Part shown: positions 75-57,281 of the stretch, one piece after another | How the letters are laid out: every line of letters starts with the position of its first letter | Numbering within the stretch: the stretch's first letter is position 1 | Source: Parietichytrium sp. I65-24A | Lineage: Eukaryota > Sar > Bigyra > Thraustochytrida > Thraustochytriidae | NCBI GenBank assembly: GCA_012862575.1 | Contig: BLSF01000030.1 | Location: 251,584-315,583, forward strand | Length of the DNA: 64,000 bases | Direction: 5' to 3' | Translations under genes and position numbers: made by a program | The notes under the pieces: model-generated | The model's database searches: none | The model's input: the letters and a program-made list of their open reading frames with translations, nothing else | What the model was told of the DNA's origin: nothing

Positions 75-1035
75 CGACGACGCGGCTATAAGCAAGCTCT
101 CGGCGTGCCAGAAAGGGTACTATGAGGATCCGTTCATAGAGACGTTCGTGGGCAAGTCGGGAAAGCGGTCGCCATTGATCAACAGAGGTTATTACGCCCG
201 GGTCCGCGCGATGGAGATGGTGGTTCAGAGGTTCCTGGAAGGAGCAGCAGGCGATGCGCAGATTGTGGCACTTGGAGCAGGGAACGACACCACGTTTTTT
301 AGATTACGCAATGACGGACGCGCGCCGTGCAAATACGTCGAAGTGGACTTGAAAGGAGTTGTGCTGAAGAAGCTGGCCGTGCTGGCAAAGAATGAACACA
401 TTCGCGAGCTTGCAGGAGTCGATATGGAGAAAATTGAGGATGCTGCGAGGAATGTAGGTACCGCCGTTTTGCAGTCCGAGCACTACGCCCTGGCGTGCGT
501 GGATTTGCGAGATGTACAAAGCCTTGCTATTATTCTCGGTCAAGTGCAAGGGTTCAGCTTTAAAGCTCCCACCCTCTTCATCTCAGAGTGTGTATTGTGT
601 TACGTAGAGCCAGAACATTCCGGACGGTTGCTGACTTGGATGCAGGACAGCTTTGATAGCGTTGCGTTCACAGCTTACGAACAGATCCTCCCCGACGATG
701 CTTTCGGAAGAACGATGCTGGGCCATTTTCAATCCAGGGGATGCCCATTAATGTCAATCCACGAGTACCCGGACCTGGCTTCTCAAGTCAAGAGGTTCAA
801 AGATCGCAACTGGGGCTATGTGGAGGTCTATGACATGAACGATATCTACTATAAGTGCCTTGACAAGGAGGATTTGCGCCGGGCAGAAAGGCTGGAAATA
901 TTTGACGAATTTGAGGAATGGCACATGATGCAAGGCCACTACTGCATCGTTCTGGCTGTGAGCGAAAAGGCGGAGACGAAGGCTCTCGCGAACGTCAAGC
1001 TTTTAATTACAGAAAGCGAAGCTGGCGCTGTCTAG
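75..1035 (+). CDS. LCMT1: Leucine carboxyl methyltransferase 1 (LCMT1/PPM1), 5' partial
   Basis: Transfers a methyl group from S-adenosylmethionine to the C-terminal leucine carboxylate of the PP2A catalytic subunit, which controls PP2A holoenzyme assembly. The readable part starts at SDDAAISKL, followed by the family-typical GYYEDPFIETFV and INRGYYARV, the SAM-binding LGAGNDTTFFRL and the acidic YVEVDLKG. ISECVLCYVEP and a C-terminal MMQGHYCIVLA complete the family order. The frame is open upstream to base 19, but those residues (VVLVFWVACLRR) do not look like LCMT. A 3' splice site ending at base 74 (gacgcag) fits, so the first exon probably lies left of the window. The stop is at 1033-1035 and AATAAA follows at 1096. 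The gene is convergent with NOT2. Family identity is confident; the 5' boundary is inferred. Confidence 0.9.
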
Positions 1036-1095
1036 CTTGCGCCAGTTCTTTCTTTCTTTCTCCGCTCGATGTGTCGTACAGTCCTGAAACGAGAA

Positions 1096-1101
1096 AATAA
1101 A
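1096..1101 (+). terminator. Polyadenylation signal AATAAA of LCMT1
   Basis: A canonical AATAAA hexamer lies 61 nt after the LCMT1 stop codon, in the short gap before the convergent NOT2 stop codon at 1229. Confidence 0.5.
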
Positions 1102-1228
1102 CTATATAAAAGAGAACGAGAGCAGTTTTGATGAATAATCCAACCATAAAGCCCTTCACTCTGAGGAAGAGCTGCGTTTTTGCGCGCAGCAGGAAAATTG
1201 AAAAATTGATTGCTTCATTTTTAATGCT

Positions 1229-2288
1229 TTATGAGGACACAGTTCCTTGGGGCGTTGCTGCGCCAGGAGAAACTTGCTGCGAGGCGGTACCGATGGAAAA
1301 GAGGGTGCTACCTGGCATGAAGCCTGATTGCAGGGTGCCGGCTAAGCTGGAGTTGTTGAAAGCTCGGCGCTCCCAAGCGTGCAAATCAAAGTATAAATAC
1401 TGCGGCTGGTCCTGTGACGCCTCCTTCGACTGCTGAAACCAGATTCTGTGCTCCATGTGGTAGCGCCAGTCCCGATTATAAAGCTCCTGGGCGGCCATGA
1501 CTTGCGCTGCGTCTCTTGGCATTGCATAAAAAATGTAAAACAAGGTCTCCAGGGAGAACTTTCCAAACATTCCCGCCTTGAGAGTAGGTTTCACCGAGTT
1601 TCCTCCAGCACTTTTGGTCGAAATATTGTAACAGGCAGGCAGTGTAAACTGTGGGTCGCGACTAGAGGGCCGATCCGACCATGGCGAGGAGAACGAGTTG
1701 TGAAGCGACTCTGAGGAGTTCAGGTTTAGTCCCAGCGACGTCAGGTCAGTTCCAAGAGCGAGAACCATGCGATCTTGCTCTTCCATGCGAATCACACTGA
1801 GCAACCCAAGGAGACCAAAGTACTGATCTGGAGGAAGTGGCGACTTTTTCTTTTGGTTACCACCTGCGCCAGCTCCGACTCCAACCCCCTTTTGTCCTGG
1901 TGCACCGGCCTTGAGAGCCTGCGCCTGGTAATCTTTCAAGCTCATGCTATTCACATCCATCCCGGCACGCATTTGCTCCATCATTTGCCCGCCGGGATTT
2001 GTCATACCAATAACTCCATTATTATCAAGTCCGTTTGGCAGTCTTTTCTGAGGTTGCTGCTGCTGCTGTTGTTGTTGTTGTTGCTGCTGGATGGTTTTGT
2101 TCCCGCCGTTTCCACCACCGCCTGGAAGTTTCATCCCTATACCTTGGCTTGGGTAGCCGGCAGAGGGCATCCCGGACCCTACCGCTCCAGCGCTACCACC
2201 GCTCGATACACTCGAGTCCAACGGGTATGGGCTTTGCTGCTGCTGCTGCTGCATGTACAATTGCTGCTGTTGCGACAACCTTTCGCGT

Positions 2289-2320
<32 letters not shown>

Positions 2321-3149
2321 TAACTGTTGCTGATGATGAGAGACCTGATTTCCCAGCGACTGCCTCAGCTGGTGGTGAAAAAGTTGTTGCTGTTGCTGTT
2401 GTAACCTTGCCATGTTATTTCTACCATCATTGGAGTCGGCTCCAGAGCCATTCACGTTACCACCAAGAGCCGGAAAGTCTTCTGTTTGAATAGCAAAGTC
2501 TGTCCGCTGATGTCCAAGCTGCATAGGATACCCAGAGCTACCTGAGTTACTCGCGTCCGGGCGGCTCTGAGCCAGCGACGGGAATTCAGACATGTCAAAA
2601 GCCATACCAGGATTGTCCATTCCCATACCCATCCTCGACGTATACGAGTTTGTAGATCCGGAGCGGTTCAGCATCATGGCGGGGTTTCCGCCACCACCCA
2701 TATGAGCTCCCATGTCTGATATACCGCTACCCATCCCCGAAGACCTGCATACATTGTTAAACAAAGTGAAAGAGAAAGCGATTTCGAATTCTGTCAGACG
2801 AGCCTGCTGGAATCCCTCTGGCAACCTCCCCTTGCCCCAACGAAGAGCGACACACTCTCTCTTCACGCCTCTGACAAAGTGACCAGAGCATCAAGAGTAC
2901 AATCAAGTCAACGTACATAGATCTTTGGGGCATACCAAACCCTATTCCTAGTCCGCCGTCGTGCATTTGCATGCCGCCACCCGCGGACGACATCATGGGC
3001 ATGTTTGGATACCTCGCACTCGATCCGCCCATCTGCTGCTGCTGCTGCTGCTGTTGTTGTTGTTGCATTCCCATCTGCATCCTCCCCTGGCCGTGCATTC
3101 TCCGCGCAGCCAATTCACTTGAATCAATCACGCCGCCAACACCAAACAT
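1229..3149 (-). CDS. CNOT2: CCR4-NOT complex subunit 2 (NOT2/CNOT2)
   Basis: Scaffold subunit of the CCR4-NOT deadenylase, which dimerises with NOT3/5 and controls mRNA turnover and transcription. Two exons join in frame. Exon 1 runs 3149-2917 and begins with ATG (MFGVGGVID). The intron, 2916-2745 (172 nt), starts gtacgt and ends tgcag. Exon 2 runs 2744-1229. The spliced protein is 582 residues. The C-terminal NOT2/3/5 domain, about residues 385-560, shows DQYFGLLGLL, a Ser-Pro-Trp segment, KFSLETLFYIFYAMPRD, WRYHMEHRIWF and YLYFDLHAWE. The long N-terminal half is Gln/Gly/Met/Asn-rich, with several poly-Gln runs from mixed CAG/CAA codons, one of them in exon 1. Leucine- and alanine-rich open frames on the opposite strand here are shadows of the poly-Gln codons. 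Confidence 0.9.
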
Positions 3150-4263
3150 CCAATCTTGTTAAGCCCCATATACTGTCGCGCAAGAAAAAGACACTTGTTG
3201 CACAATCATCAACCCTCCAAACTCACGTCTACGAGCGCACTTTCCCAGCGCCTGCCGCCGCGTACCAAAAGCGCGAATCCACTCACACAATTCACCCAAT
3301 TCGCCAAATCCAAGCGCACAGCGCAAGTCTGAAACTCGCCCTCTCGCCGTCTCGCTGTACCAAACTATCTCACCGACGCGTGTGCCAAGCGACCCGCCCG
3401 CTCTCTGCCGCGAGGAGCGTGCGTCTCTCAGCAGCCGAAGAATGTCAGCGACCACGGTTCGAATCCGCCGCCGCGCGCTTTTTTTGCCCCTTCTTTCCTT
3501 TCTCTCTGTCCTTCCCGCGCGATCCTCCGCTCCCTCTCCCTCTCCACTCTCGCGCTGCCTCTCCTGCCGCGGTTGTTTTGAACCAAGGTTCTCCACACAG
3601 TACCGATCACTAAGTCGCACCGTGGGGGCCCAAGGGCGAGCCTCCAAAGCACGCTTCATTTTTGTTCTTTTTGAGACCGTGGGGGGAGGGGCACGGGGCG
3701 CCTTTGGATGTTATGTGGGTTTAAGGAGTCTTAAGCGGAAGACGTTGGGATTTTACCAAGCCTTGAAGTGAGCCTGAGCCTTGAGCCGTGAGTCATCGTA
3801 ATTATCGATTTTGATTGACAGTGTGACATTGTGAACGCGTGCAAATTTTATTTAGAGCCTTGCGGTTTTCTGACCTGTTTGTTCGTGCGCTGTGCTCTGA
3901 GTCAATGGAATGAACTTCTAGCAAAGGGGGCGAAAGGTTGAGCGCTTCAAGAGGCATTTCATGTCTTCGCTGTTGATAAACGTGGTTGTTTTTGTCGATA
4001 CTGTGGAATCTAGAAAAGGTTTTCAAAAAGCTCTGTAGAAAGCTTGTCCAGGAACTGAGCTCCTCAATTGGTACGATTGGTACTCTACTTTCGTCCGTTT
4101 GCTCTATCGTCGCGGTGACCGTGAGGGACAGTGAGTGCCGTGACACGCGGCGCGTACACGGTTAGTGCGACTCGCTCACTTTGAGGTATTTGAGGCGCCT
4201 ACTCGAAGAGCGCAGGTGCGAAGCGAGCAGGAGAGCAGCAGAGACTGTCTGGCGAGGCCAAGG
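3150..4263. promoter_or_regulatory. Divergent intergenic region between NOT2 and BBS5
   Basis: About 1.1 kb with no supported gene. The left part is C-rich with Ser/Arg-rich spurious frames. Near BBS5 it holds two copies of the recurring GACAGTG core (3817-3823 in ttgattgacagtg, and 4127-4133) and a cgcgtacacgg element about 115 nt before the BBS5 ATG. These elements recur at other divergent gene starts in the window, so a shared promoter role is plausible but not shown. Confidence 0.4.
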
Positions 4264-5412
4264 ATGGAGGAAGTATGGCAGGACAGGGAGATCCGGTTCG
4301 ACATCCCCCCGAGAGAGTATGTCTGCAGGGCCGGCGAGACGGAGATTGACTCAATCAACTCAGTGGAGGACACCAAAGGCAACAATGGCATCCGAGGGAG
4401 CCTGGCCATTACAAACCTCCGGTTGCTGTGGTGTTCGCACAAGTCTACAAAGGTGAACTTGAGTAAGTTGAAAGACTAGGTCTGAAACGATGTGCGTGAG
4501 GGCACTGACACAAGAAACTGCATGATCTCTACAGGTATCGGCCTGAACTGCATTCTCAAGCTCAAGATCAAGACTGCAGACTCCAAGCTCCGAGGACCAA
4601 CGCAGGCTTTGTATGTGATGGGGAAGTTCGAGGACACGAAATTTGAGTTTATCTTTACTTCGTTGGTGAAGTACAGTCCGCGACTGTTCACAACGGTTCA
4701 AGCCGTCTACAGAGCGTACGAGACGAGCAGGCTATATCGAGAGCTAAAACTTCGTGGCGCGATCGTTCGCGAAAACACCCTCAAGCTTTTGCCAGATGAA
4801 GAGATTTATGAGCGCGTGTCTGGGGTGTGGAACCTTTCTGCGGACCAAGGAAACCTCGGGACATTCGTCATCACAAACATACGCCTGGTGTGGTTTGCGA
4901 ATCTCGCGACGAATTTCAATGTTAGTATCCCATATTTGCAGATGAAAACGGTATGGCTGAAGGCCTCCAAGTTTGGGGATGCGATTGTTGTCGAGACGAC
5001 AGCGAAGGAGGGCAGCTTTGTGTTAGGATTCAAAGTATCTCCGCAGGAGAAGATGGAGGAGACCCTCAACACGGTCAAGAATTTGCACAAAGTTTTTTCA
5101 CAAAATCCAAATTTTGGGGTCTCTTTCACTTACGACGAGGCCCCTCAGTCCCTGGAGCAAGTGACTGAAAAGAAGATTGACGAGGACGCCACAATCGTCG
5201 AGGACTACAACGACTACATTCCTGCATCATTCGCTGCCACCAAAGGTCGCTCTGCATACGTAACCGAAGCCGGGAACAACGCTTCAGAAGAGTCAAAAGA
5301 AGCGGAAGACTCAAAACCTGTCATTATATACAGTCACGAGCTCGGGTGCGCCGTGCAGCAGCCGTCGGGAGGTGCCACCATGGCAGCTCTCTGGTCATTG
5401 ATATCTTCGTAA
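4264..5412 (+). CDS. BBS5: Bardet-Biedl syndrome 5 protein (BBSome subunit BBS5)
   Basis: Subunit of the BBSome, the coat that moves membrane cargo in and out of cilia; BBS5 carries tandem PH-like (DM16) repeats that bind phosphoinositides. Exon 1 is 4264-4462, intron 4463-4534 (72 nt, gtaagt to tctctacag), exon 2 4535-5412, giving 358 residues against about 341 in human. Diagnostic stretches are RDGIRGSLAITNLRLLW-like text in the first repeat, SKLRGPTQALYVMGKFED, VYRAYETSRLYRELKLR, VWNLSADQGNLGTFVITN, NVSIPYLQMK and the C-terminal motif around ELGCAVQQ and ALWSLISS. The start ATG gives the expected short N-terminus. Its presence implies that the organism builds a cilium or flagellum at some stage. 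Confidence 0.93.
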
Positions 5413-53768: not shown

Positions 53769-56700
53769 ATGCGACAGTGGTCAGAGCTCTTCGTGTCGCG
53801 CGGCGAGCGCGAGCGCCGCGAACGCCGGTACGAGCGCGAGCGCGCAGGTCTTCTCCGCGAGCTGAAAGGAGCGATCTCGGCGACCATGGAGCTGTCCTCG
53901 CTGCGTACCCCTCACACGGACGTCATCGGCACCGGCAGCAGCAGTAGCATTAGCAGTGGCAGTAACAACGGCGGGGACGCTGATGACGTGGCGCTGTGTT
54001 TGGCGCTGGAGGAGGACGACGCGGCGGTGCAGGATCTGTTGCTGTGGCTGGAACGGTGCTTGTGGCACGGACTGCGCGAGGACTTTACGCTGTGGTCCGC
54101 GGTGGGAAAGGCAGAGTGGCGCGGGGACGGACACCAGTGTGCTGGCGCCAAGTCCGCGGCGGAGAACGCGCGGGGATTGGCGCACGTACGCGAGGCAGCC
54201 GGGAAGAGCAGGGCGTGGGTGCGGCTCGCTCTGAACGGCAAAGTGCTGGACTGGGCGGTGGCAGCACTGGCAAGGGACAACGCGACGCTGCTGGCCAGCT
54301 GCTACGAGGATTTCGCACTGGTGCGCGATGAGGACGCGTGCTCGCTGCTGTCATCCATGCTCACCGGCCTCAACGGTCTGGACTTTGCGCTCCGACCTGA
54401 CCTTGCGGTGTGGGACAAAGCGCCGCTGCCGCTGCGCCGACCCGTCATGCTCGTGTCCTCGGACTCGGACACAGGGCCCGTTTCTGCCTCCTTTGGAGAC
54501 TCCTTTTTTGCCTCCCGCAGTCCGAGCAACTCGCTCGGCAACGAATCAGATGGGAGACGAAGGTCGGCGTCCCAGACGCATCAGGACCAGTTCTCGCACC
54601 AGGATTACCGGGACCAGCAGGAGCCTAGCGGTCACGAACGTGCTCATGGCGCAGCTGCGGGCTCGACTTCAACGGAGAAGCGGTCGATCTGGTCCCGGAC
54701 GCTGCGGCAGGCCATGGACCGTGCGTCGCAGGCCATTGCTGGCGTCAGGGACGGTGCGAGCAATAGCAAGGCGAACGATGACAGCGGCAGGCAGCAGAGT
54801 GTCGTGCTTGATGTGGCGGCCAAGGCGCTTCACCAAAGGGCGAACGCAAAGCGAAAGGTGCGCGAGAGGTATCTTCTCAAGCTCCAGGAACAAAGCGATC
54901 CCTTTGGGCAATCGCTAGAGCTGGCTTGCAAGAACCCCAGCATTAGCGCCCTCGCCTTGATGGAGCCGCGAATCGCGGTGCCCGACATCTTTCTCAGGTG
55001 CGTCGCTCTTCTTTGGCAGCTGAAATCGAAGAATGGTCTACCAGCAAATTCGTTCGCTCTGGCACAATGCGAGCGCGGAACCACCAGCACTGAAGAGCAC
55101 AAATGGAGACAGATTTTGCAGCTCAAGTACTGCTTGGGGCAGCTGGGGAGGTCCGGGCTCACGATTTTCTCCCGAGTCGGTGTTGATGTCGACCTCGAGG
55201 TTGCACTATCCTCCATCGCAACAACCACTCAAGCAGGAATTCCTCGTGCACAGGAGATGCTGGTGAAGTCGGACATCGTTGCCTCCGTTCTCTTTGTGTA
55301 CCTCAAGCAGTTGCCCAAACCATTGATTCCTGCAGAGATGCTGGAACCTATGCTGCTTTGCCTGGGTATTGAAGAGGAGGTTGCCCAAACTCGCAATTTC
55401 TCATGCCTCATAGAAGCCTTTCCGCAATCCAATAAAACGTGCTTGGATCTCTTTTTGATGTTCCTGGCTCGCCTAATGGACGGACAGACTGAGGAGGACC
55501 GCAAAATGCTGCTCGACTCGCTCGCGCCACACTTTTGTAGGCACCTTGGAGAGACCGGGGGACCCAGTGCTAGACTTCTTACTGTTCTTATTGACCGACA
55601 CACGGAAATAATGTCGAGTGTTCGGCAACAGATTATCGAGTGGAAGGAGCGACTGGCAACCAAGGTGGCACGGATTCGCGCGGTTTCAGATGGGCTTAAT
55701 CGCATGGTTGTATATGCCGAGGAAGACTTGCCGGACAAGGACAACACGGCCTACCGGGTTCCCAACTCGAAGAGGAACCACGCTTGTCTAGAAGTGCTTT
55801 GGGACCATCTTGGTGGTGAACCTGACAACAAGGGGGGCGGCGCAGGAAGCATGAGCTTGCAATCCCAAGGCTGGAAATCAAGGGGCTGCGTGAGCTCCGA
55901 TGTAACAAAAGAGTTTCGAGGGGGCGGGGAGACTGCTCTTTACGATTTGGCGTATTTTGTCACAAAGCACTCCAAAAAGACTCGGATGATGGTCGAGGCA
56001 AAGAAGTTTCCATTTGTTCAGGCCGCATGCCAAGTTAGCAGAATGACTGCAGATGTGCTAGGGATCGCATCTCAGGAATTCCTCTCCTCGGGCTCGCTCT
56101 CCTCGGCTGGAACTACCGGCGTGCCCAGGTTTGGCGGGTCTTCCGCGAGGAATGGAGGTGGGGTCAAAAGGACGCAGGGTTTATATTCTGGCGGCGCGGG
56201 TCAAGCAAACTCGTCGCGGATATTGGAAGACATTTCTGCGAAGCCGTGGTGGAGAATGCTCGATGAGGAGGATGCCACACACCGTGTATTCGCTATGGCG
56301 TTCCTTCTGCTTGATCTCAACTTTTCAGAGACTAATGCAAGTGTGTCGGACTTCACCCGTGTAGCGCAAGAGACCAAGTTCCAGATGTTAGATCTACTTG
56401 CTCTTGAGCCCAGCAGTGTGAACCAGCTTTGGCATTCGTGGATTGCACTTCGAGCAGAGCGTATGCTGTGGAAGTCTCCGTCTCCCGATCCTGCGCCAGC
56501 ATCAGCATCTGCAAATCCGCATGATTCGAACGTTAGTGGCGGTCGCTCCATGGCTGGTGCGGCCAATGCCTCCAACTCGGTACATTTAGGCGTTGGAGGG
56601 TCTGGAGAGCTCCGTCTTCCTTCCAAGGCGTCCAGTTCGCTTATGGAGGAGTCTGAGACCGAGGTGAGGGATGCGTCGCCTCGAAACGCAACTCGCGCCA

Positions 56701-57281
56701 ATTTCTCGAGCTCGGTTGACATGAGCGCAAGCTCAATGAGCTCATCGGTCCAGTTCGATCAGCTCTTGCCCAGGCTATTAGCAAAGAGCGGCATATTGAC
56801 CACAGAACACATTCGTAGCCTAGAAGCGGCATTGCCGGACACATACCAAGGGTACAACTGGACTCTCGCTTACAGCTCCGCCAGGGACGGCCCGTCATTG
56901 GAAACTTTGTACAGCAAAGCCTGCGAACATGAGGCAAGTATGCTTATTGTAAAGGATACCACGGGGGCGTGCTTTGGGGGGTTCTCCTCTTCTCCGCTGC
57001 GCGTGACAGCAAGTTACTTTGGAAACGAGGACACGTTTTTGTTCCGATTGGAACCGGTATTTGAGGCGTTTAGTTGGTCAAGAAAGAACAACTACTTTGT
57101 GCTAGCAAATGAAGACTCGATCGCATTCGGGGGTGGAGGAGAGTTCGGCTTGTTCTTGGACGAGGATCTTCAAGGGGGTACAACTGGACCTTGCCCGACG
57201 TTCACTAGCCCTTGCCTCTCCACTCAGCCCGACTTTGACACAAGTCTCGTTGAAGTGTGGACGTTTGTGGTTCGGCTTTAA
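53769..57281 (+). CDS. RUN-RhoGAP-TLDc multidomain protein
   Basis: Large single-exon protein, 1170 residues. After a basic N-terminal helix (RGERERRERRYERER), residues about 72-218 form a RUN domain (LLLWLERCLWHGL, AWVRLALNGKVLDWAVAALA, DLAVWDKAPLPL); RUN domains bind small GTPases and motors on membranes. Residues about 400-610 resemble a RhoGAP domain (VPDIFLRCVALLWQLKSKNG, SVLFVYLKQLPKPLIPAEML, FPQSNKTCLDLFLMFLARLM, LAPHFCRHL). The arginine-finger position reads TIFSRVG rather than GIFRxSG, so catalysis is doubtful. Residues about 1000-1170 are a complete TLDc domain (YNWTLAYSSARDG, FGGFSSSPLRVTASYFGNEDTFLFRLEP, YFVLANEDSIAFGGGGEFGLFLDEDL, VWTFVV), the V-ATPase-binding and oxidation-resistance fold. 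Ser-rich linkers separate the domains. A role linking GTPase signalling, endolysosomes and V-ATPase is inferred. Confidence 0.85.
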   Translation: MRQWSELFVSRGERERRERRYERERAGLLRELKGAISATMELSSLRTPHTDVIGTGSSSSISSGSNNGGDADDVALCLALEEDDAAVQDLLLWLERCLWHGLREDFTLWSAVGKAEWRGDGHQCAGAKSAAENARGLAHVREAAGKSRAWVRLALNGKVLDWAVAALARDNATLLASCYEDFALVRDEDACSLLSSMLTGLNGLDFALRPDLAVWDKAPLPLRRPVMLVSSDSDTGPVSASFGDSFFASRSPSNSLGNESDGRRRSASQTHQDQFSHQDYRDQQEPSGHERAHGAAAGSTSTEKRSIWSRTLRQAMDRASQAIAGVRDGASNSKANDDSGRQQSVVLDVAAKALHQRANAKRKVRERYLLKLQEQSDPFGQSLELACKNPSISALALMEPRIAVPDIFLRCVALLWQLKSKNGLPANSFALAQCERGTTSTEEHKWRQILQLKYCLGQLGRSGLTIFSRVGVDVDLEVALSSIATTTQAGIPRAQEMLVKSDIVASVLFVYLKQLPKPLIPAEMLEPMLLCLGIEEEVAQTRNFSCLIEAFPQSNKTCLDLFLMFLARLMDGQTEEDRKMLLDSLAPHFCRHLGETGGPSARLLTVLIDRHTEIMSSVRQQIIEWKERLATKVARIRAVSDGLNRMVVYAEEDLPDKDNTAYRVPNSKRNHACLEVLWDHLGGEPDNKGGGAGSMSLQSQGWKSRGCVSSDVTKEFRGGGETALYDLAYFVTKHSKKTRMMVEAKKFPFVQAACQVSRMTADVLGIASQEFLSSGSLSSAGTTGVPRFGGSSARNGGGVKRTQGLYSGGAGQANSSRILEDISAKPWWRMLDEEDATHRVFAMAFLLLDLNFSETNASVSDFTRVAQETKFQMLDLLALEPSSVNQLWHSWIALRAERMLWKSPSPDPAPASASANPHDSNVSGGRSMAGAANASNSVHLGVGGSGELRLPSKASSSLMEESETEVRDASPRNATRANFSSSVDMSASSMSSSVQFDQLLPRLLAKSGILTTEHIRSLEAALPDTYQGYNWTLAYSSARDGPSLETLYSKACEHEASMLIVKDTTGACFGGFSSSPLRVTASYFGNEDTFLFRLEPVFEAFSWSRKNNYFVLANEDSIAFGGGGEFGLFLDEDLQGGTTGPCPTFTSPCLSTQPDFDTSLVEVWTFVVRL

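Follow-up and report, generated by a model that had tools for sequence, protein, structure and literature searches.

A predicted four-domain protein of Parietichytrium sp. I65-24A combines RUN, RhoGAP-like and ELMO domains with an NCOA7/OXR1-type TLDc domain

A single open reading frame of Parietichytrium sp. I65-24A is predicted to encode a protein of 1170 amino acids in which a RUN domain, a RhoGAP-like domain, an ELMO/CED-12 domain and a TLDc domain follow one another (Table 1). The frame lies in a 64-kb stretch of contig BLSF01000030.1, the whole of which is referred to here as the window. Judged from the sequence, the protein may be a RUN-recruited regulator of the V-ATPase with an ELMO domain acting on Arf/Arl GTPases, such that recruiter, GTPase switch and pump regulator would be combined in one polypeptide; we put the probability of this reading at about one half.

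Table 1. Predicted features of the 1170-residue protein and its gene (positions are those of the window)
Feature	Position	Strand	Evidence
Single ORF, RUN-RhoGAP-ELMO-TLDc, 1170 aa	53769..57281	+	Open frame, Pfam, coding signal; no likely intron seen
RUN domain, residues 94-211	54048..54401	+	PF02759, 53.1 bits (cut-off 22), E 4.7e-14
RhoGAP-like domain, finger-loop region from residue 462, Pfam stretch 501-589; probably degenerate	55152..55535	+	PF00620, 38.4 bits, E 1.5e-9, profile 53-139 of 148
ELMO/CED-12 domain, residues 667-865, with Gly/Ser-rich insert	55767..56363	+	PF04727, 57.1 bits (cut-off 23.3), E 3.1e-15; 2.3e-15 in genome scan
ELMOD-type GAP motif, residues 702-727, Arg717 (codon 55917-55919)	55872..55949	+	8/13 consensus positions
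TLDc domain, residues 1005-1166, NCOA7/OXR1 type	56781..57266	+	PF07534, 155.6 bits, E 1.5e-45; NCOA7 5.9e-38; 6/6 V-ATPase-interaction residues

All four domains scored above the curated gathering cut-offs of Pfam. An earlier note on this DNA had claimed an N-terminal RUN domain, a central RhoGAP-like region and a full C-terminal TLDc domain, while allowing that a search might find no RUN or RhoGAP match; both of these were recovered by profile, and the TLDc match runs from position 3 to 169 of the 170 in the profile. The three-domain make-up it described was nevertheless incomplete, as the ELMO_CED12 domain between RhoGAP and TLDc had been overlooked. Matches to solved structures were strong for the TLDc (5.9e-38) and RUN (3.6e-9) domains and weak for RhoGAP (GRAF; 0.0032 when the whole protein was used, 0.00041 when the region was), while that for ELMO lacked significance (human ELMO1; 0.28). 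AlphaFold2 without an alignment reached a mean pLDDT of 36.7 over the whole protein and of 49.9 over the RhoGAP region, which is insufficient for a fold search. No LysM, FYVE, PH, PX or Rubicon-homology match was found in the protein with Pfam, nor a RabGAP-TBC match at E values up to 10, although the search filters remove most matches above about 0.1; a search of NCBIfam found no match.

On the reading we prefer, recruitment to an endolysosomal membrane would be the task of the RUN domain, by way of a Rab-, Arl8- or Rap-like GTPase, and the ELMO domain would act there as a GAP on an Arf/Arl GTPase. The RhoGAP-like domain might bind a Rho-family GTPase without turnover, or could be a spacer, and the TLDc domain would bind the V1 sector and inhibit or dismantle the V-ATPase. 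Taken together, these parts would form a switch that shuts down both Arf/Arl signalling and the pump on one membrane, following the logic of TBC1D24 with another GAP fold. In its favour we count the four domains above cut-off, the structure matches for TLDc and RUN, the ELMO Arg and the six conserved TLDc residues; the presence in the genome of Arl2, other Arf/Arl proteins and V-ATPase subunit E; and the occurrence of the RUN relative in a RUN-PX-Rubicon-homology protein. Against it we count the lower agreement of the ELMO motif with its consensus by comparison with two other ELMO proteins of the genome. The earlier note had proposed a tie between Rho/Rab-type signalling and the proton pump: a link between GTPase and pump is what the domains best support, but Arf/Arl would be a likelier substrate than Rho/Rab, because the ELMO domain has the Arg needed by ELMOD-type Arf/Arl GAPs. 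A bolder proposal, which we consider unlikely, is that the protein represents a new type of V-ATPase regulator, with an ELMO Arf/Arl GAP and a V1-binding TLDc domain covalently joined; Arf/Arl GTP hydrolysis and pump dismantling would then be one event on RUN-marked endolysosomes, with a dead RhoGAP domain sensing Rho signalling.

The ELMOD GAP motif is given as WX3G(F/W)QX3PXTD(F/L)RGXGX3LX2L, with the Arg required (PMC8483735). Residues 702–727 of the Parietichytrium protein align with this motif without a gap over all 26 residues and agree at eight of the 13 consensus positions, Arg717 among them, with the Phe-Arg-Gly-x-Gly frame around this residue intact; the maximum in 1000 shuffles of the protein was 7/13. 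Three other ELMO places were present in the genome, of which two have 12 of the 13 positions and the Arg; the third (C45) has six positions in the ungapped register and the Arg is absent from the stretch. The alignment with human ELMO1 places a Thr opposite Arg717, although the stretch over the motif contributes about 0 bits and so is no evidence either way. In the likeliest role of the protein, the working GTPase arm would be the ELMO domain, acting on Arf/Arl. Arl2 GAP activity is described for ELMOD1–3 (PMC3764207). The candidate partners Arl2 (1.3e-83) and V-ATPase subunit E were both found in the genome, together with 66 matches to the Arf/Arl family PF00025, a count that by our reading includes other small GTPases.

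The best placed of the alternatives, although we think it improbable on balance, is that the protein is a catalytically silent scaffold in which RUN, RhoGAP-like and ELMO domains are all GTPase-binding surfaces without GAP activity, tied to the pump by TLDc. The altered catalytic site of the RhoGAP domain (see below) and the incomplete ELMO motif are consistent with such a scaffold; the Thr of human ELMO1 would also point this way, but in a stretch of about 0 bits it proves nothing. Arguing for a working ELMO domain, Arg717 and its frame are intact, and this is the one residue demonstrated to be essential in animal and plant ELMODs; by contrast, the C45 copy in the same genome has no Arg in the corresponding stretch.

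The RhoGAP-like domain looks degenerate. Its catalytic residues, which we take from the p50RhoGAP literature to be a finger Arg, a Lys and an Asn, were compared with those of other RhoGAP domains in the genome; as the Pfam match starts at profile position 53, the finger loop falls outside it. In a pairwise alignment with the best RhoGAP domain of the genome (L018; score 67), SGLT---IFSRVG is set against SGLTTEGIF-RVPG, that is, three residues of the finger loop are missing and one is added, with Arg469 opposite the finger Arg. When six of the genome's RhoGAP domains were aligned with it by MAFFT, Arg469 again paired with the finger Arg, and the ungapped GRAF alignment placed Ser468 at this position; five of the six pairwise alignments scored 39 or less, and the finger reading rests on L018, MAFFT and GRAF. 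The position of the catalytic Lys is occupied by Phe509 and that of the Asn by Ser584. Among ten stretches taken from the 16 other RhoGAP matches of the genome, the Arg was kept in all seven covering it, the Lys in eight of ten and the Asn in four of nine; therefore little can be read into the missing Asn, and this domain is not alone in lacking the Lys. With Phe at the Lys position and the finger loop rebuilt, it is doubtful that the domain acts as a GAP on Rho.

These comparisons also bear on whether the protein could be an active dual GAP, with Arg469 as the finger and with Rho and Arf/Arl switched off together. The two gapped alignments that pair Arg469 with the finger Arg, the RhoGAP score above the Pfam cut-off and the two of ten other stretches in which the Lys is also missing would fit this; the rebuilt finger loop, the Phe and Ser substitutions, the placement of Ser468 at the finger in the ungapped alignment and the consistency with which the other stretches retain Arg and Lys do not, and we regard an active dual GAP as a poor prospect.

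For the TLDc domain, the nearest solved structures are NCOA7 and other NCOA7/OXR-type domains, with Skywalker (7.3e-14) and mEAK-7 (1.6e-12) far behind. Alanine substitution of Ncoa7 residues G815, S817, G845, G896, L926 and E938 abolished or reduced V-ATPase interaction (PMC8608904), and all six residues are identical here when mapped through zebrafish OXR2. Four of these residues are buried, so that their conservation bears on the fold in general as well. In GST pull-downs from the same study, TLDc domains purified from Tbc1d24 and Tldc1 failed to bind the V-ATPase, whereas overexpressed Tldc1 protein did interact (PMC8608904). Because of these negative pull-downs and the burial of four residues, conservation of the six does not prove V-ATPase binding, and we infer such binding for this TLDc domain from its residues. 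In yeast, disassembly of the V-ATPase is driven by the TLDc protein Oxr1p (PMC11094088). A common protective role against oxidative stress is ascribed to mammalian TLDc proteins in a review (PMC5614904), and a stress-protection protein, in which TLDc would act apart from the V-ATPase and the N-terminal domains would merely place the protein in the cell, could be proposed. We hold this to be improbable, given that the domain is closest to the V-ATPase-binding NCOA7/OXR1 class and keeps the interaction residues.

At the other end of the protein, the RUN domain matched the solved structures of RUFY3 (3.6e-9), PLEKHM1 (1.7e-7) and PLEKHM2 (7.7e-7), and the sole RUN relative found in the genome with the whole protein is 34% identical and forms part of a RUN-PX-Rubicon-homology protein. 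RUN domains differ in their partners, and RUFY3 binds ARL8 via its CC2 region and not via RUN (PMC8938451), which we count against the reading we prefer.

Genome-wide profile scans for the four families, in which weak matches may be missed, gave four ELMO, eight TLDc, three RUN and 17 RhoGAP matches, this protein included. Apart from the protein itself, matches to two different families shared a contig three times, and the closest pair, a TLDc and a RhoGAP match 8.7 kb apart (C40), lies in separate open frames; by coordinates, nowhere else in the genome do two of the four families occur within 8 kb. It thus seems that no other gene of the genome joins any two of these domains. Pfam analysis of nine other open frames gave the combinations RUN-PX-RH, PXA-RUN-PX-Nexin_C, TBC-TLDc (C60), LysM-TLDc (C101) and CBS-TLDc; of the remaining frames, two had ELMO as their only domain, one had TLDc only, and one had ELMO plus a marginal DIX match. 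The LysM-TLDc protein entered this set as 692 of its 759 residues and neighbouring exons were left out, as were the TLDc places C8, C2:519172 and C40 and the other RhoGAP places.

The reading frame runs without a stop for 1170 codons from its ATG and for 1201 codons from stop to stop; shuffling the ORF 200 times by single bases gave a longest open run of 243 codons (mean 137). Eight other ORFs of the window served to train a codon-usage score, which, read in blocks of 300 nt, was best in the ORF frame in all 12 blocks, those over the linkers among them, and positive in 11; the last block (−0.01) extends 87 nt beyond the stop. In the same register the score was negative in the two blocks before the ORF and the three after it. 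In this genome, gaps of 100–156 nt starting GTAAGT or GTGAGT break up the matches to Arf genes (three read), so the absence of introns from the 1170-codon ORF is not to be presumed. Of GTRAG donor sites, the only type considered, the ORF has two; one lies within the ELMO motif, and the sole acceptor partner of the other is inside the TLDc domain. Were an in-frame intron present in a linker, the order of the domains would be unaffected. That two adjacent genes in one frame, or a hidden frame-changing intron, produced the architecture artefactually is very improbable: the gaps in the Arf genes of this genome speak for it, but the long stop-free run, the coding signal across the linkers and the positions of both GTRAG sites argue against it.

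A search of the genome (42.5 Mb, 172 contigs) with the whole protein found one copy; of the six other matches, five cover TLDc alone and one RUN alone. Of two collections of viral or prokaryotic DNA searched for relatives, one gave none and the other gave 18 pattern matches without a confirmed relative, a result that is silent on other eukaryotes. For the omega-3 PfaA family, the genome had matches far below the cut-off and no others. No Rfam match was found in the window. Its 21 other ORFs of at least 250 amino acids were sampled by scanning ten with Pfam, and those with matches looked ordinary, for example CXC/tesmin, kinase, aldehyde dehydrogenase and tRNA synthetase proteins.

Comparison with known systems suggests that TBC1D24 is the nearest working model for the protein. 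As in TBC1D24 and Skywalker (TBC-TLDc), a domain of the kind that regulates small GTPases precedes a C-terminal TLDc, but RUN, RhoGAP-like and ELMO domains stand in place of TBC and the TLDc is nearer to NCOA7/OXR1; the Parietichytrium genome also encodes a separate TBC-TLDc protein (C60). According to a review (PMC5614904), TBC1D24 has no TBC-type Arg finger; it binds to ARF6, reduces ARF6-GTP and can also inactivate Rab35. With NCOA7/OXR1 (LysM-GRAM-TLDc) the protein shares the TLDc class and V-ATPase-interaction residues, although it has no LysM, and the LysM-TLDc protein of the genome is again separate (C101). It resembles the RUN adaptors RUFY3, PLEKHM1 and PLEKHM2/SKIP, with which we group Rubicon, in its clear RUN matches, but is without the FYVE, PH, PX or Rubicon-homology matches sought above; to our knowledge none of these four carries ELMO or TLDc. 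RUN-TBC proteins, the SGSM family, also join RUN to a GAP domain, whereas here the GAP folds are others and TLDc is added. The ELMO domain with its Arg is shared with the ELMOD Arf/Arl GAPs; in the Parietichytrium protein, however, it is one of four domains and has a motif of 8/13. Arabidopsis ELMODs are proteins of 265–323 amino acids, save for one shorter likely pseudogene (PMC8483735).

No description of the RUN-RhoGAP-ELMO-TLDc combination was found in the literature as judged by titles and the starts of abstracts, and the words 'TLDc', 'RUN' and 'RhoGAP' are absent from the main text of an ARF survey (PMC8358228). The domains are known and their combination is new to us; the protein is of a known kind, a TLDc protein with a GTPase-regulating domain, and related species may have a protein of this architecture that has gone unnoticed. 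The protein bears on how TLDc proteins are directed to individual V-ATPases and on what sets them off. If an ELMOD-like Arf/Arl GAP, a RUN recruiter and an NCOA7-type TLDc are indeed joined here, the protein would be a natural fusion suggesting that they belong to one pathway, testable in one protein, and its architecture suggests a direct link between the switching off of an Arf-type GTPase and the control of organelle acidity. If this is true, the 1170-residue protein would be a separate solution of the same kind beside TBC1D24 with its puzzling link to ARF6.

The RUN-containing product of locus L030 resembles Rubicon/PLEKHM1, with a PX domain in addition. The domain order of that of L032 is of the sorting-nexin type, with RUN placed between PXA and PX; its RUN match in the Pfam scan was weak (1.4e-5), yet above the cut-off. 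Comparison of the ELMO protein (L006) with the ELMOD-type GAP motif showed the catalytic arginine to be absent from the motif stretch, and the DIX match preceding ELMO was marginal (22.3 bits versus a cut-off of 22.2). The very long frame on contig C66 gave seven matches to portions of the omega-3 PfaA model, each below cut-off, and by our reading is a large polyketide or fatty-acid synthase.

Open frames in the Parietichytrium sp. I65-24A genome (G000; ORF positions count within each locus)
Product	Locus	ORF	Strand	Basis
RUN-PX-Rubicon-homology, 1708 residues, single ORF	L030 (G000:C11:376500-382500)	251-5374	+	Pfam scan
PXA-RUN-PX-Nexin_C	L032 (G000:C5:537000-543000)	1448-4780	-	Pfam scan
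5583-residue frame	G000:C66:8562-22499			omega-3 PfaA model matches
ELMO, marginal DIX	L006 (G000:C45:131960-135184)	550-2019	+	Pfam scan
CBS domains, C-terminal TLDc	L037 (G000:C2:1056500-1061000)	1464-4070	+	Pfam scan
TLDc	L031 (G000:C56:79900-82800)	677-2620	-	Translation, Pfam scan

Ahead of the L031 TLDc, an apparent signal peptide and one apparent transmembrane helix were read by eye; the product is perhaps a membrane-anchored TLDc. The CBS domains of L037 appear AMPK-gamma-like by eye, and this fusion would set a nucleotide-sensing module beside a V-ATPase-type regulator.
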